NCBI GenBank assembly: GCA_020186115.1
Contig: WSYJ01000081.1
Span: 428,736-492,735, forward strand
Direction: 5' to 3'
From: Histomonas meleagridis
Lineage: Eukaryota > Parabasalia > Tritrichomonadida > Dientamoebidae
DNA: 64,000 nt
The position numbers were made by a program, and so were the translations under genes. Each line of letters begins with the position of its first letter. The stretch's first letter is position 1. The notes under the pieces are model-generated. The model did no database searches. It was given only the letters and a program-made list of their open reading frames with translations, and was not told the origin of the DNA. Of this stretch, positions 2,572-24,690 are shown piece after piece.

Positions 2572-4497
2572 ATGCTAAAGATTGAACCTCCTTTTTGGTG
2601 GGCAGGTATGAAAGACAAAGAATGCCAGCTCATGATATATGGTGAAGGAATTTCAAAGTACACCAATATTGAAATAAGTAATCCAAATATTAAAATTTTA
2701 AGCATTGTCACATTAACCAGTCCAAACTACTTGATTATATACATTGACACATCGCTTTCAGGTCCATGCAAATTTACAATAAAGTTATCGTCCAATACAG
2801 AAATATCATTTGAAATCGAATATGAACTCAAACAAAGACAACATAGAGATAACCCCAAAGGGTTTAGTTCATCAGATGTTTTATATCTTATTATGGTTGA
2901 TCGATTTTCCAAAGGGCGTAGTATTGATTATGGTGATCTAGAAATCCCTAAAAAAGAAGAAGAAGAAGAATCAAATGCCAACAGTGATGAAGCTAATGAT
3001 GAGTCCGAAGAGCAAATAACAGAACAAGAAACATCAGAAAACATCAAAGAAGAATCCACGCCATTCCATGATCCAAACTTCCCTTCTATCCACAGCCAAT
3101 ACACTGTTAACAGGAATGATCCTGACTCACGTCATGGTGGTGACTTTCAAGGAATCATTGATCATCTTGATTATCTTTCCGATTTAGGTGTAACAGCTTT
3201 ATGGCTTACACCTGTTTTTACTAATGATATGCCCGGAGGGTCATACCATGGATATGCTTCCACCGATTTTTATCACACTGATCCTCGGTTTGGCAGCATC
3301 AACGATTTTTGTTCACTTATCTCGTCAGCGCATCAAAAGGGCATCAAAATCGTCATGGACCAAGTGTTCAATCATTGCGGCTCTAAACATGTTTGGCGTA
3401 TTGATACTCCTTCGCGTGATTGGTTTAACTTTCCTGATTCCAAAGTCCAAACCACGCATGAGATTCCTGTTCTTTTATCTCCATATTCAAGTGAGATCGA
3501 TAAGCGCGAATTTAATGATGGTTTCTTTGTTGAGGCTATGCCTGATTTAAATCAACGTAATGTTCATCTTAAGAAATATCTTATTCAGAATAGTATTTGG
3601 TGGATAGAAAATTGTTGTCTTGATGGTATTCGTCAAGATACATATCCATATTGTGATCAATCTATGATGTGTGAATGGGTATCACATATTGAGGATGAAT
3701 ATCCTTGGTTTAATATAGTCGGAGAATGTTGGGTTGAGAATACATTAGGATCAGCATGTTGGCAACGCGGTAGTAATCACTTTAGTCCAATACGAAGTAA
3801 TCTTCGTACTGTTATGGATTTTTCATTTACAAAACTTATCCATGACGCAACACATAATGAAACTGATCATGATAATGGCCTTTGGTTATTATATCGTCTC
3901 CTTAATTATGATTTTATTTATCCCGATATAAAACATGTTTTAAGATTTTTGGATAACCATGATACAAATCGATTCTTAATCGAAACACCAAAAGATCTTT
4001 TTGCTTATAAAATCGGGGTGACATTATTACTTACGTTACCAGGTATACCACAATTATATTACGGAACTGAGATTTTAATGTCCGGCGTAAAAAATATCTC
4101 CGATGGGTACGTTCGAAAAGATTTTCCTGGTGGATGGAAAACAGATAAAATAAATTGCTTCGATGAAAATGGAAGAAATGATTTACAAAATGAAGCATTC
4201 GATTTTATAAGAAATTTGTTGAAATGGAGAAAAGGTAAAAAAGTAATTGCAAAGGGAGAAATGAAACATTTTAGAGTAACAAATGGTATATACGTATACG
4301 AAAGAAAATATAAAAAAGATAAAGTGATTGTAATATGTAATGGAACAAGTGAAACAAAGAAAATGTTGTTAGAGAGATATAACGAGGTCTTAGGTGACGT
4401 GGAAAAGGCAACGGATGTAATTACAAAGAAAGTAATAGAGTTGAATGAAAAGGAACTTGTCTTGGAACCCAAACAATTACTAGTTTTGGAAATTTAA
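2572..4497 (+). CDS. GH13 alpha-amylase family enzyme, cyclomaltodextrinase/neopullulanase type
   Basis: A 641-residue glycoside hydrolase predicted to cut alpha-1,4 glucans, maltodextrins or cyclodextrins in the cytosol, as no signal peptide is seen. The N-terminal 90 residues start with PPFWWAGM and look like the Ig-like cyclomaltodextrinase N-domain. The catalytic barrel carries all four GH13 regions: DQVFNHCG (about 263-270), GIRQD with nucleophile D356, GECW with acid E385, and LDNHD with D464. The HGGDFQGIIDHLDYLSDLGV segment closely follows bacterial, Bacteroidetes-like enzymes, so gene transfer is likely (inference). A Glu/Ser-rich insert at about residues 128-165 interrupts the catalytic domain just after DRFSKG and looks like a later addition. 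Start ATG at 2572. Exact substrate preference cannot be read from the sequence. Confidence 0.93.
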   Translation: MLKIEPPFWWAGMKDKECQLMIYGEGISKYTNIEISNPNIKILSIVTLTSPNYLIIYIDTSLSGPCKFTIKLSSNTEISFEIEYELKQRQHRDNPKGFSSSDVLYLIMVDRFSKGRSIDYGDLEIPKKEEEEESNANSDEANDESEEQITEQETSENIKEESTPFHDPNFPSIHSQYTVNRNDPDSRHGGDFQGIIDHLDYLSDLGVTALWLTPVFTNDMPGGSYHGYASTDFYHTDPRFGSINDFCSLISSAHQKGIKIVMDQVFNHCGSKHVWRIDTPSRDWFNFPDSKVQTTHEIPVLLSPYSSEIDKREFNDGFFVEAMPDLNQRNVHLKKYLIQNSIWWIENCCLDGIRQDTYPYCDQSMMCEWVSHIEDEYPWFNIVGECWVENTLGSACWQRGSNHFSPIRSNLRTVMDFSFTKLIHDATHNETDHDNGLWLLYRLLNYDFIYPDIKHVLRFLDNHDTNRFLIETPKDLFAYKIGVTLLLTLPGIPQLYYGTEILMSGVKNISDGYVRKDFPGGWKTDKINCFDENGRNDLQNEAFDFIRNLLKWRKGKKVIAKGEMKHFRVTNGIYVYERKYKKDKVIVICNGTSETKKMLLERYNEVLGDVEKATDVITKKVIELNEKELVLEPKQLLVLEI

Positions 4498-10377: not shown

Positions 10378-13300
10378 ATGATTCCCAATCTTGAGCAATA
10401 TATACAAAAATATCAAAAAATAGAAGACACTTTGCTTGCATTAGAAGAAAGTAACACAGAACAAACAGTTTGTTCAGTTTTAGAATTAATTGGTAATCAA
10501 TTTATCATCTCATATCTACATGATATTATTCATTTGGTTTATTTTTCTTTCGTCAGAAAAGGAGAGAGTCCTAAAGTTTATTTAGATTTTTTAAAATTAT
10601 TAAATAAAAGAGTAGAAGAAAAATTTCAAGTTCATTATAACATTATGAAAGTATTTGCATATTTTCTTTTTACAACAGAAACAAGTTTTGGTAATTATTT
10701 TCTTGAATATATGTTTGAGAATGAATTAGCTGACCCAATTATGTTAAAGAATCAAAAAAGAGCTTATTTTTCTCATAGAGAAATTGATCCAAATTTATAT
10801 GCATATGCAGGTATAAATTTTAACGAATATAAAGATTTAATGAGAAATAATTGGGAACTTCATAAGAAACTTATACATGCTGGGGTTCATTGTTCAAGAA
10901 TTGAAAATATAATTCGAAAAGATGAAGTTGAAGAGCTTCAAGAAATTTCATCACAATCTAATTTTAATTTCGATCAAACCTTAACTGGGTGTTATTTCGA
11001 TAGATATTCTTCAATATATAAATATAATGGTTTATCGCTCATTCAAATTGCTGCATTTTTTGGATCAATTAAATGTTTTAAATTTTTATTATTAAATAAT
11101 TCTTCATTAGATAATTTAGGAGGATATGCAGTTTTAGGTGGAAATGAAGAAATCATTCATTTATGTGAACAAAATCACGTATCATTTGAAGGTGCTTATA
11201 AGGAAGCAGTTATATTTCATCGAAATGATATATTTAATTATCTTTATGAAAATAAAATTGTTGAATTAAACAATATAACAAATTTAGGAATTGAATGTAT
11301 TAAATATCATAATTATGCAATGTTACCCTTTTTAGAAGAAAAAGGAATGGAAATCAATACATATTATTTTACACAAGAAATATTAAAAAGTGGTAATATT
11401 TTTCTTTTTAAACACTATTTAGAAAAAATTCAAATACCAGATAATATTTTAAAAACTGTAGTATCATCAGGCAATATCGAAATTGTTAAATATGTTTTAC
11501 AAAATAAATATATTCAATCTTACATCAATCAATTCAAATCTAGGAAGACTAATGCTGTTTAAATATTATTTTTTGTGTTGTTTATGAATTTTTCTAGAAG
11601 CATTTATTGTTGCATGTCAAAATGGATTTACTGATATATTTAAATTTCTATTAAAACAAGAAGAATTGGAAATTTCTGCTGAAATTTATTTATATATTCT
11701 GGAGTTTGTTTTTTTAATCAGGGATTTTATAAAAATAATTTATATTGATTTAATTTATTTAATACGCTTATTAGTTATGCTTTGCAAAATTACCATTTTG
11801 AAATCGTTAAATTAATTCTAAAGAAAAATTTATGTGACTTTACTAAAGAACATGTATAACAATTTAATTTGGATTTTATTTCTTTATTTTTACCCCAACA
11901 ATTATATTGGCAACTAGAATTGGATTTGTTGAAATTGTAAAATTAATTCTTGAGCAAAAAGGTGTTGATGTTAACACATATACAGATAATAATTGTTTGA
12001 TTTTTTTATCGATTTTTTAATTTTAAAATTTATTTAAATTATTTGAAACAGCACTTTACATAGCATCTAAAAATGGTTTTACTGATATTGTTAAAATACT
12101 TCTTGAGAAACCTGAAATTGATATTAATTTAAAGAATGCTTATTTTTTTTAATCCAAGTTTATTACAATTATAATTAGGAATTTGAATTAATTTTATTTA
12201 ACACCTCTTATGATAGCATGTTTTAGATGTCATGTTGATGTTGTTGAATTACTTCTAAAACAAAAAAATATAGATATTAATTCATGTGATATTTATTTAA
12301 AGCATATAATATTTGTTTTTATAAAATTTAGTTTAAATATATTGTTTGGGATTTATTTTTATTAATTAGAACAGCATTAATTATGTCGTGCGGAAATACA
12401 TATAAAGAAATCACCAAACAACTTTATTATGAAAAAAGTGTTGATTTAACAGAATTAAAAGTTAATACATTTTGTTCGATATTTATTACTAAAATTTGAA
12501 GTTTTTCAATTGTATATGAAGTTTAATTATTTAAATTAGAATACCCTATATTCAAGAATTTTGGGACAAATATGGTAAAATTGTAAAGATGTTACTTGAG
12601 CATAAAGAAATTAATATAAATACACAAGATATTTATTTTTGTTTATATAAAGTTCACTTAAAATATTTTGTGTTTCATTTTTATATTTGGATATTTTTCT
12701 AATGATTTGATACAGCTTTAATTAAATCATGTGAAAATTCTGATAGTAATATATTAAATTTACTTCTTGAATTTAAAGGCATTGATATAAATATTAAAAA
12801 TGTTAGTAAAAATATTTTGAAGTTTTATAAAAATGTTTTGGATTACATAAAAATATTTGGAATTTATTTCAATTATGTCGTACTGCAATTATGAATGCAA
12901 TAGAAAATGGATATATAGAAATATTCAAAATACTTCTTGAACAAAAAGGAATTGATATTAAAAATGAAGATATTAATTTGATTTTTATCAAGTTTACTTT
13001 AATAATATGATTTTTTAAAAACATTTTTGGAAATTATTCAAATAATTTAATACAGCACTTATGTTAGCAGCCAAAAATGGTCACGTAGAAATATTCAAAA
13101 TCCTTCTTGAACAAAAAAGAATTGATATAAATAGCAAAAATAATTATTAAATTTATATGTTATTTAAATTAATAAATTAATATATCATAAAAATATTTAT
13201 AAATTATTCAAACCATTCGAAACAGCACTAATTTTAGCAACTCAGAATTATCATATAGAAATAGTTAAATTACTTCTTGAACAAGAAGGAATTGATATTA

Positions 13301-13845
13301 ATGCTAAAGATATTTATTTGTTTTATTTAATATTTATTTTAATAATTTTATATTTCAAAATAATATTTGGAAATTATTTAAATTGTTTCAAACAGCACTT
13401 ATGTATGCATCTAATAATGGTCATACAGAAATAGTTAAATTACTTCTTGAACAAGAAGGAATTGATATTAATGCTAAAGATATTTATTTGTTTTATTTAA
13501 TATTTATTTTAATAATTTTATATTTCAAAATAATATTTGGAAATTATTTAAATTGTTTCAAACAGCACTTATGTATGCATCTAATAATGGTCATACAGAA
13601 ATAGTTAAATTACTTCTTGAACAAGAAGGAATTGATATTAATGCTAAAGATATTAATATTTTTTGTTTAAAATTAATTTATCTAATTTTATCTTTCATAA
13701 TAACATTTGGAATTTATACAATTTATTTAAAACAGCATTTGATTATGTCAATAAAAATAATGAAATTTATAAATTGTTCGAGCCTCTAAAGGAAAATTTC
13801 CAACAAAATAAATGGTTTATTCATTTTTTTTTCAAGCTTCATTAA
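10378..13845 (+). CDS. DUF3447/ankyrin-repeat protein with ankyrin units separated by intron-like spacers
   Basis: A first block (10378 to about 11555) encodes an N-terminal helical region and a DUF3447/ankyrin domain (LSLIQIAAFFGSIKCFKFLLL, then IEIVKYVL). Fourteen stop-free ankyrin blocks follow: 11597-11683, 11764-11850, 11898-11987, 12048-12137, 12201-12290, 12371-12460, 12541-12630, 12712-12801, 12882-12971, 13052-13141, 13222-13311, 13392-13481, 13562-13651 and 13732-13845, which ends in TAA. Most are exactly 30 codons, from Thr of TAL to the D/N before the next turn. Between them lie AT-rich spacers with stops and non-triplet lengths. Blocks differ from each other in sequence yet none has a stop or indel that breaks frame, so the spacers must be removed or skipped if the protein is made. 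The sister gene at 37454-42175 encodes similar ankyrins with no spacers. Exact exon edges are not resolved: GT...AG ends are not consistent. Confidence 0.75.
11684..13731 (+). repeat. Array of alternating 90-nt ankyrin blocks and about 80-nt spacers
   Basis: Spacer lengths between conserved blocks, in order, are 80, 47, 60, 63, 80, 80, 81, 80, 80, 80, 80, 80 and 80 nt. Spacers start with ATTTAT/ATTAAT-like codons that fit the two residues after KD, and end with one variable codon (GAA, CAA, AAT, AGA, GAT, AAA) that fits the x of the ankyrin GxT motif, usually preceded by TTT. Most share TTTGGAAATTATT-like sequence starting 26 nt before the next block. Confidence 0.85.
13312..13651 (+). repeat. 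Two identical tandem 170-bp units (spacer plus ankyrin block)
   Basis: 13312-13481 and 13482-13651 are identical by eye. The duplication unit is one spacer plus one ankyrin block, which shows that the array grows by whole units and that the spacer is copied along with the coding block. Confidence 0.9.
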
Positions 13846-23623: not shown

Positions 23624-24690
23624 ATGGCTGAAGACGAAGTCCAAACATTAGTTATCGATAATGGTTCCGGTATGTGCAAGGCTGGTTTCGCTGGTGATGA
23701 AGCACCACGCTCAGTTTTCCCATCCATTGTTGGTCGTCCAAAGTATGTCCAAACAATCGCAGGTGGTCAAAACAAGGATACATATGTTGGTGATGAAGCA
23801 TGTGCTAAGGCAGGTATCCTTATCCTTAAGTACCCAATTGAACACGGTATCGTTACCAACTGGGACGATATGGAAAAGATCTGGCACCACACCTTCTACA
23901 ACGAATTACGTGTTGACCCAGCTGAACACCCAGTTCTTCTTACAGAAGCCCCAATGAACCCAAAGGCTAACCGTGAAAAGATGATCCAACTTCAATTCGA
24001 AACATTCAACGTTCCAGCATTCTATGTTGGTATCCAAGCCGTTCTTTCCCTTTACTCATCAGGTCGTACAACCGGTATCGTTTTCGATGCAGGTCAACCT
24101 CGCCGGTCGTGATCTCACAGCCTACCTCCAAAAGATCCTCAACGAACGTGGTTACACCTTCACAACATCCGCTGAAAAGGAAATTGTTCGTGATATCAAG
24201 GAGAAGCACGCATATGTTGCTCTTGATTTCGACGAAGAAATGAACAAGGCCGCCACAACATCCGAATGCGACATCTCATACACACTTCCAGATGGCAACG
24301 TCATCACCATCGCCAACGAGCGCTTCAGGTGCCCAGAACTTCTTTTCAAGCCACACTTCAATGGCTTCGAATTCGAAGGTATTGACCAAACCCTCTTCAA
24401 CTCCATCATGGCATGCGATATCGATGTCCGTAAGGGATCTCTACGCTAACATTGTTCTCTCTGGTGGTACCACAATGTTCGAAGGTCTCCCAGAACGTAT
24501 GGAGAAGGAAATGGTCCGCCTCGCACCACCAACAATGAAGATCAAAGTCGTCGCCCCACCAGAACGTAAGTACGCAGTTTGGATCGGTGGCTCCATCCTT
24601 GCCTCCCTTGCCACATTCCCACAAATGGTTATCACACGTGACGAATACAACGAAGCTGGTCCAGGAATTGTCCACCGCAAGTGCTTCTAA
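23624..24690 (+). pseudogene. Actin gene with an internal deletion and a one-base insertion
   Basis: Begins [20 protein letters not shown] and ends [10 protein letters not shown], so both actin termini are present. Nucleotide-binding motifs ([15 protein letters not shown]) are readable. Two lesions break it. At about 24092 the sequence jumps from FDAG to NLAGRDL, losing about 20 codons (the region around the second phosphate-binding loop and the D-loop-facing segment) and shifting frame. At about 24437 an extra G (AAGGGATCTC) shifts frame before [11 protein letters not shown]. Codon use is strongly biased to C-ending codons, unlike the neighbours, so it derives from a highly expressed actin. 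Actins are multicopy in trichomonads, so mis-assembly of copies is also possible. Confidence 0.9.

Follow-up and report, generated by a model that had tools for sequence, protein, structure and literature searches.

In structured (Euglena-like) non-conventional introns, a stable pairing brings the two ends together. Introns of another kind are found in the lineage of Histomonas meleagridis, a poultry parasite of the Tritrichomonadida. According to excerpts of the genome report for this species (PMC8529796), the virulent assembly comprises 43,414,808 bases in 187 contigs (43 Mb, 28% GC) and its annotation contains 573 introns, with no more than one per gene. Type B introns of Trichomonas vaginalis measure 23 to 25 nucleotides (nt) (PMC12316389, in excerpt), and those of Stentor have a fixed length of 15 to 16 nt and are AU-rich (PMC9505925, in excerpt). 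Here we describe a DUF3447-ankyrin gene with interrupted interrepeat linkers, carried on a 64,000-nt window (the whole stretch of DNA analyzed, G000:C50:428736-492735) of the H. meleagridis genome, which as analyzed had 43,276,120 bases in 121 contigs.

We propose that the gene codes for a single DUF3447-ankyrin protein, the linkers of which are broken, exactly between codons, by AT-rich inserts of 17 nt that would each have to be taken out or skipped singly, to the base, for the protein to form. The chances are about even that the inserts are removed one by one from RNA, as ultra-short intron-like units of near-fixed length that would do without the GTATGT...CTAACACATAG signals marking spliceosomal introns in this genome; three steps in this are inferred from the DNA sequence, namely expression of the array, removal of the inserts, and RNA as the level of removal. 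Thousands of such inserts, excised or hopped over singly by neither canonical splicing nor matched-codon bypass, would somewhat probably make up an undescribed class of gene interruption.

Interrupted linkers and the 17-nt unit

Upstream of the ankyrin array, an open reading frame (ORF) of 394 amino acids (positions 10378-11562) contains a DUF3447 domain (PF11929, E 9.8e-12), and 14 ankyrin blocks follow at 11597-13845 (Table 1). A preliminary description of the locus had held that the blocks are free of stops and that the spacers cannot be read straight through. Both points stand, as the 13 full blocks (29 or 30 codons) have no internal stop, the last block is in frame up to a TAA, and only 3 of the 14 spacer lengths are multiples of three. 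The blocks were also said to differ strongly from each other, which does not extend to blocks 12 and 13; these are identical copies, as are spacers 11 and 12. The junctions, described as always two codons after KD and one before Thr, are in reality runs of 17-nt inserts separated by whole codons. Parsed by hand, the window gene contains 50 inserts (two to four per spacer, mostly three or four, two of them 18 nt long) and 52 hidden codons, none of which is a stop; in 9 of the 14 spacers, the penultimate hidden codon is Gly. The spacer at 13312 may serve as an example: each of the codons AAT, TAT, GGA, and CAA is preceded by 17 nt, and the block continues with ACA GCA CTT, giving Asn-Tyr-Gly-Gln-Thr-Ala-Leu. 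Minus its inserts, this spacer is, as predicted from the sequence, a normal ankyrin linker. The ankyrin linker consensus is KD-x-x-G-x-T, a pattern that appears only when the inserts are left out; the blocks match by score matrix.

To define the unit, 160 unique spacers of 13 to 130 nt were collected from the window and other loci. The array loci were 20 stretches chosen as interrupted-looking from Ank_2 profile matches (best 150 of 9,115 scored), a nonrandom sample in which ankyrin blocks were found with a score matrix made from the window's own blocks; the loci L020 and L030 overlap and represent one place. Spacer lengths cluster at 57, 60, 63, 80, 81, and 83 nt, with minor classes at, e.g., 29, 40, 46, 66, 97, and 100 nt. 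Uninterrupted linkers in these loci are mostly 12 nt, or four codons (7 cases), and linkers of 12, 29, 46, 63, and 80 nt form a series, 12+17k with k from 0 to 4, that fits 111 of the 160 unique spacers. Allowing two to five codons, the rule 3c+17k fits 149 of 160 while admitting only 18 of the 118 possible lengths; 8 of the 11 spacers outside it are 81 nt long, and the 81-nt spacers looked at are accounted for by 18-nt inserts. Four-insert linkers have one insert before each codon. In the few linkers with a single insert, it precedes the fourth codon, and in the few with two, they precede the third and fourth (with one exception, a 46-nt case in L019).

This regularity bears on the reading in which each spacer is a single unit removed at once and the hidden codons are a by-product. 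Joining any 5' border to any later 3' border does keep the frame. However, the hidden codons avoid stops and keep Gly (see below), 63-nt and 80-nt spacers, which differ by one insert, share a locus in the window and at eight other places, and linkers with k = 0, 1, or 2 keep four codons (7, 2, and 2 cases, respectively). Because of the 12+17k series and the hidden codons, we have set aside a single intron per spacer as very unlikely.

Sense-only hidden codons

In 124 unique spacers (69 of 80 nt, 37 of 63 nt, and 18 of 60 nt), none of the 478 hidden codons is a stop, compared to 27.6 stops expected from slot base composition (16.8, 4.4, and 6.4 for the three classes, respectively); all the stop expectations given here assume independent triplets, an assumption that tandem copies violate. 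An earlier count, with copies not removed, also gave no stop in 416 slot codons (64 80-nt and 40 63-nt spacers). The codon at slot 3 is Gly in 49 of 69 80-nt and 31 of 37 63-nt spacers, the number falling to at most 1 when the register is slid by 1 to 9 bases either way, and in 7 of the 18 60-nt spacers the middle slot is Gly. Asn, Lys, Asp, and Tyr predominate at slots 1 and 2, as is usual at such positions in ankyrin linkers.

Stop avoidance was also apparent in a scan that used an insert matrix and no blocks. It returned 179 unique trains (at least three inserts at 20-nt spacing) with 760 triplets, among which were 2 TGA (78.2 stops expected), both explained by an 18-nt insert that shifts the register in 81-nt spacers of L026. 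Including copies and the overlapping L030, there were 4 TGA in 824 triplets from 197 trains (85.7 expected). The spacing itself is sharply defined, with 285 high-scoring insert triples at 20 nt, 1 at 21 nt, and none at 16 to 19 or 22 to 24 nt.

These data leave hardly any credence for ordinary GT-AG spliceosomal introns or for straight read-through with frameshifting. In 15 of 160 spacers, a GT close to the left edge can be paired with an AG of the same frame close to the right edge, and 19 of the 37 63-nt spacers are open when read straight, but the other 145 spacers lack even such a pair, the other 18 63-nt spacers contain a stop, 52 of 69 80-nt spacers have a frame-0 stop, and all 80-nt spacers change the frame. 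The introns seen in this genome, moreover, look quite different from the spacers.

The blocks themselves had been considered to be under selection, and this was borne out only in part. Stops occur in 8 of 225 array blocks, five of which are the last of their arrays and are read as natural ends, and 95.5 of 215 tested blocks would hold a stop if the differences from the nearest sister were random. However, the median ratio of nonsynonymous to synonymous substitution rates (dN/dS) was 0.84 in 792 within-array pairs (60% below 1), all of them paralogous, not orthologous, repeats; this is close to the value that the preliminary description had itself named as speaking against selection. The repeats are free to diverge in residue yet rarely into stops. 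As put, the argument from selection is weak; what speaks for translation is instead the avoidance of stops together with the hidden Gly.

A dN/dS near 1 would suit arrays that are silent or decaying, with only the 5' DUF3447 ORF translated and the blocks being either noncoding repeats or a reservoir of donor sequence for other ankyrin genes. So would the near-identical tandem units, the occurrence of some blocks out of frame, and the annotated H. meleagridis relatives P0014, P0016, and P0033, which lack an ankyrin array. Silent sequence would hardly explain the absence of stops from the 478 hidden codons, the Gly held at slot 3, the finding of only three blocks in 225 with stops away from array ends, or the fit of the layout in relatives at most 57% identical, and we regard this explanation as quite unlikely.

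Table 1. Coordinates of the DUF3447-ankyrin gene in the window (hidden codons in one-letter code)
Feature	Position	Strand	Details
5' ORF, first coding part	10378-11556	+	DUF3447 (PF11929); ends ...R-K-T-N-A before first insert
Nominal stop of 5' ORF	11560-11562	+	Inside first insert
Spacer 0	11557-11596	+	40 nt; inserts 11557-11573, 11577-11593; hidden TGT (C), CTA (L)
Ankyrin block 1	11597-11683	+	EAFIVAC...; 29 codons
Spacer 1	11684-11763	+	80 nt (77 nt if block 1 is given one extra codon); four 17-nt inserts; hidden G G Y N
Ankyrin block 2	11764-11853	+	
Spacer 2	11854-11894	+	41 nt; one 17-nt and one 18-nt (11874-11891) insert; hidden G T
Ankyrin block 3	11895-11984	+	
Spacer 3	11985-12047	+	63 nt; three inserts; hidden D F K E preferred, parse uncertain
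Ankyrin block 4	12048-12137	+	
Spacer 4	12138-12200	+	63 nt; three inserts; hidden A V G L (uncertain parse)
Ankyrin block 5	12201-12290	+	
Spacer 5	12291-12370	+	80 nt; inserts 12291-12307, 12311-12327, 12331-12347, 12351-12367; hidden N L G R
Ankyrin block 6	12371-12460	+	Diverged
Spacer 6	12461-12540	+	80 nt; four inserts; hidden D E E R
Ankyrin block 7	12541-12630	+	N-terminal half diverged
Spacer 7	12631-12711	+	81 nt; one 18-nt (12631-12648) and three 17-nt inserts; hidden K C G D
Ankyrin block 8	12712-12801	+	
Spacer 8	12802-12881	+	80 nt; inserts 12802-12818, 12822-12838, 12842-12858, 12862-12878; hidden E W G R
Ankyrin block 9	12882-12971	+	
Spacer 9	12972-13051	+	80 nt; four inserts; hidden Q D G N
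Ankyrin block 10	13052-13141	+	
Spacer 10	13142-13221	+	80 nt; four inserts; hidden V N I E
Ankyrin block 11	13222-13311	+	
Spacer 11	13312-13391	+	80 nt; inserts 13312-13328, 13332-13348, 13352-13368, 13372-13388; hidden N Y G Q
Ankyrin block 12	13392-13481	+	
Spacer 12	13482-13561	+	80 nt; identical to spacer 11
Ankyrin block 13	13562-13651	+	
Spacer 13	13652-13731	+	80 nt; inserts 13652-13668, 13672-13688, 13692-13708, 13712-13728; hidden K Y G K
Final partial ankyrin block plus C-terminal tail	13732-13845	+	TAA at 13843-13845

Genome-wide scale, relatives, and the proposed level of removal

What had been presented as one peculiar gene belongs to a genome-wide pattern with thousands of two-insert sites. 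The core of the common two-insert type occurs at 3,145 sites (1,557 + 1,588, up to two mismatches; backward control, 0), and another common type occurs at 2,253 (1,448 + 805; backward control, 68 + 22 = 90). In the first 100 exact sites of the latter, there was 1 stop triplet compared to 17.9 expected. The N-terminal part of the DUF3447-ankyrin family was found in 99 scored candidates of 8,255, arrays being checked in the fetched loci only. In TALHIAV-type arrays (L009, L010, L013, L015, L017, L018, and L022), the long linkers contain a 20-nt minisatellite, composed of a 17-nt insert plus a codon, in 14 trains of 7 to 45 copies; the inserts are near-identical and the sense codons varied. The longest train, with 45 inserts in L017, has hidden codons for Glu, Val, Gly, and Ile and no stop. 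Because all combinations of insert borders keep the frame, such trains could yield linkers of varied length.

The insert layout is probably older than H. meleagridis, as suggested by a hand reading of metagenome proteins. P0005, P0013, and P0032 have at most 55, 57, and 51% identity, respectively, to this genome, and their read-through ends are compatible with spacer lengths of 80, 63, and 83 nt; it is by this hand reading only that the layout is supported in relatives. A search of genome contigs for relatives yielded L041, which is histomonad-like and ends before any array, and L042, with neither trains nor blocks. The L041 DUF3447 gene is 48% identical to the family and lies on a protist-like contig binned in a bacterial metagenome-assembled genome (Gastranaerophilales), evidently a contamination. 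No relatives of the array were matched in viral contigs. We found no published account of such inserts, preprints and most subscription journals being outside the reach of the search.

The consensus of 220 unique inserts is R-T-T-T-V-W-W-W-W-W-A-W-W-A-T-T-T. They begin mostly with AT (102), AA (41), or GT (38) and end with TT in 166 cases. Between sister 80-nt units, the last three insert bases vary by 6 to 23% (41% at one place), and hidden codons 2 and 4 by 32 to 71%. Since the last three bases vary less than these codons and whole inserts vary about as much as the blocks, the 3' end of the insert is held as sequence and the remainder less clearly so. A length fixed to the base, together with variable termini, points to a process that measures.

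In translational bypass, the main rival reading, the inserts would stay in the mRNA and the ribosome would hop over each 17 nt, possibly aided by the nascent ankyrin peptide, which precedes most linkers with the consensus KLLLEQEGIDINAKD. This would account for inserts being seen only behind the KLLLEQEGIDINAKD peptide (within the best-match lists) and for the missing splice signals; the inserts are AU-rich and unstructured, and a bypass between any insert borders stays in frame. There is also a precedent for mass bypassing in a yeast mitochondrion, with 81 sites, some without perfectly matched codons (PMC5009743, in excerpt). Bypass would, however, require up to four consecutive hops (45 in L017) with a single codon decoded between successive hops, and the preceding codon equals the last triplet in only 9 of 441 inserts, unlike what matched take-off and landing codons would give. 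In the excerpts of the same source, moreover, the phenomenon is known from a phage gene and mitochondria only (PMC5009743). We hold bypass to be a tentative and rather unlikely alternative. The preliminary description had proposed a new excision class or bypass; both are still live, with the insert and not the spacer as the unit.

Removal from RNA as single inserts, the reading that we prefer, faces a number of adverse observations. GT...AG termini are found in none of the 220 unique inserts (38 start with GT, 1 ends with AG), and canonical trichomonad splice motifs, already noted as absent in the preliminary description, are lacking from the 160 unique spacers (GT...AG edge to edge, 0; CTAAC branch motif, 0; GTATGT, 1). 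No stable fold was found, with 0 kcal/mol for two single inserts and z from -1.05 to 0.97 for five window spacers. Whole inserts are about as variable between sister 80-nt units (0.27 to 0.33) as blocks are (0.20 to 0.35, by codon position). Beyond the block dN/dS, three blocks have stops away from array ends (L011, L012, and L025), and 2 of the 14 long trains (L009 3580 and L017 2778, the latter the 45-insert train) are preceded by out-of-frame blocks. The joined product was not recognized in two protein searches. Sequences inspected from the first (16 matches) and from a further search (30 matches) were ORFs ending in or shortly after the first spacer, one of which (P0031) has one further block behind an uninterrupted linker, and unrelated ankyrin proteins; the second, a weak search, scored the 7,999 candidates richest in common words, and the 120 of 1,050 matches listed, judged without sequences, reached at most 65% identity. 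We also know of no precedent for 3-nt coding pieces between 17-nt introns. Finally, inserts were not seen in kinase (best 132 of 635 scored) or LRR_5 (best 150 of 3,722 scored) matches, and confinement to ankyrin linkers would be odd for a general splicing activity. Because they show only top candidates, these lists favor unbroken genes; the Ank_2 list, likewise a best-match list, is nonetheless rich in interrupted matches.

Canonical-looking introns are present in the same genome. Seven of 133 listed kinase matches contain stops, and all nine kinase loci examined (these seven plus two partial matches) have an intron with GTATGT and either CTAACACATAG (eight loci) or CTAACACACAG (one locus). 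Only one row of the LRR_5 list has a stop. A genome scan for GTATGT followed by CTAACACATAG 15 to 45 nt on gave eight sites, longer introns falling outside these limits, and none with CTAACACACAG 12 to 40 nt on. By eye, all eight scan introns contain an inner inverted repeat (e.g., TCATTTTC...GAAAATGA), which would place the 5' splice site close to the branch site. Across several of the loci L032 to L040, the kinase introns have nearly the same codon positions. A separate kinase domain, at G000:C78:376002-376739, is in an open frame of 22,955 amino acids, a giant protein if real.

A codon-usage scan for frame shifts in the window outside the arrays found 13 of 14 shifts to be of another kind, and the lone fit to a 17-nt loss scores badly; the scan, which requires >90 coding bases to either side of a shift and did not pick up the array in the window itself, is insensitive. 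At 23624-24690, three overlapping ORFs lie in plus-strand frames and the codon-usage path shifts frame at 24103 and 24389, with no 17-nt pattern.

Comparison with known systems

If removed from RNA, the inserts would to our knowledge form the densest set of very short introns known, with no known splice signal, in a lineage held to be intron-poor, and would call for length-measuring recognition. If they are skipped by the ribosome, a nuclear genome would make use of programmed bypassing on a mass scale. On both readings, current annotation would truncate many ankyrin genes in genomes of this kind, and P0014, P0016, and P0033 may be examples.

For every known intron or bypass family tested, the inserts lack a defining feature. 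The spliceosomal introns of trichomonads (types A and B of T. vaginalis and the GTATGT...CTAACACATAG introns of H. meleagridis kinases) come from the same lineage and likewise need exact removal. They are, however, GT-AG introns with a branch site fused to the 3' end and few per genome, whereas the ankyrin inserts are 17 nt long without a motif. Structured, Euglena-like introns differ by their stable end-joining pairing, which was not found in the two inserts and five spacers folded. Trichomonad DUF3447 and ankyrin proteins share the N-terminal DUF3447 and ankyrin repeats of the window gene; in Tritrichomonas foetus P0036, the sole relative from that species inspected, the repeats are read through with normal linkers. 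Annotated H. meleagridis genes, according to the excerpted genome report, have no more than one intron (PMC8529796), compared to 50 inserts in the window gene, with single codons between them. The introns of Stentor provide a precedent for a fixed ultra-short length, and the inserts share this near invariance, but most Stentor introns, as excerpted, retain GU...AG termini, with the branch A at position 10 or 11 (PMC9505925), and the inserts do not have such termini. Bypassing elements, in phage T4 gene 60 and in the mitochondria of Magnusiomyces capitatus (81 elements), are likewise noncoding, frame-breaking, and placed between codons; in the excerpts of that work, T4 uses matched GGA codons and the yeast elements are read by a mitochondrial ribosome (PMC5009743), whereas the H. 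meleagridis inserts match in 9 of 441 cases, are nuclear, measure 17 nt, and come in trains.

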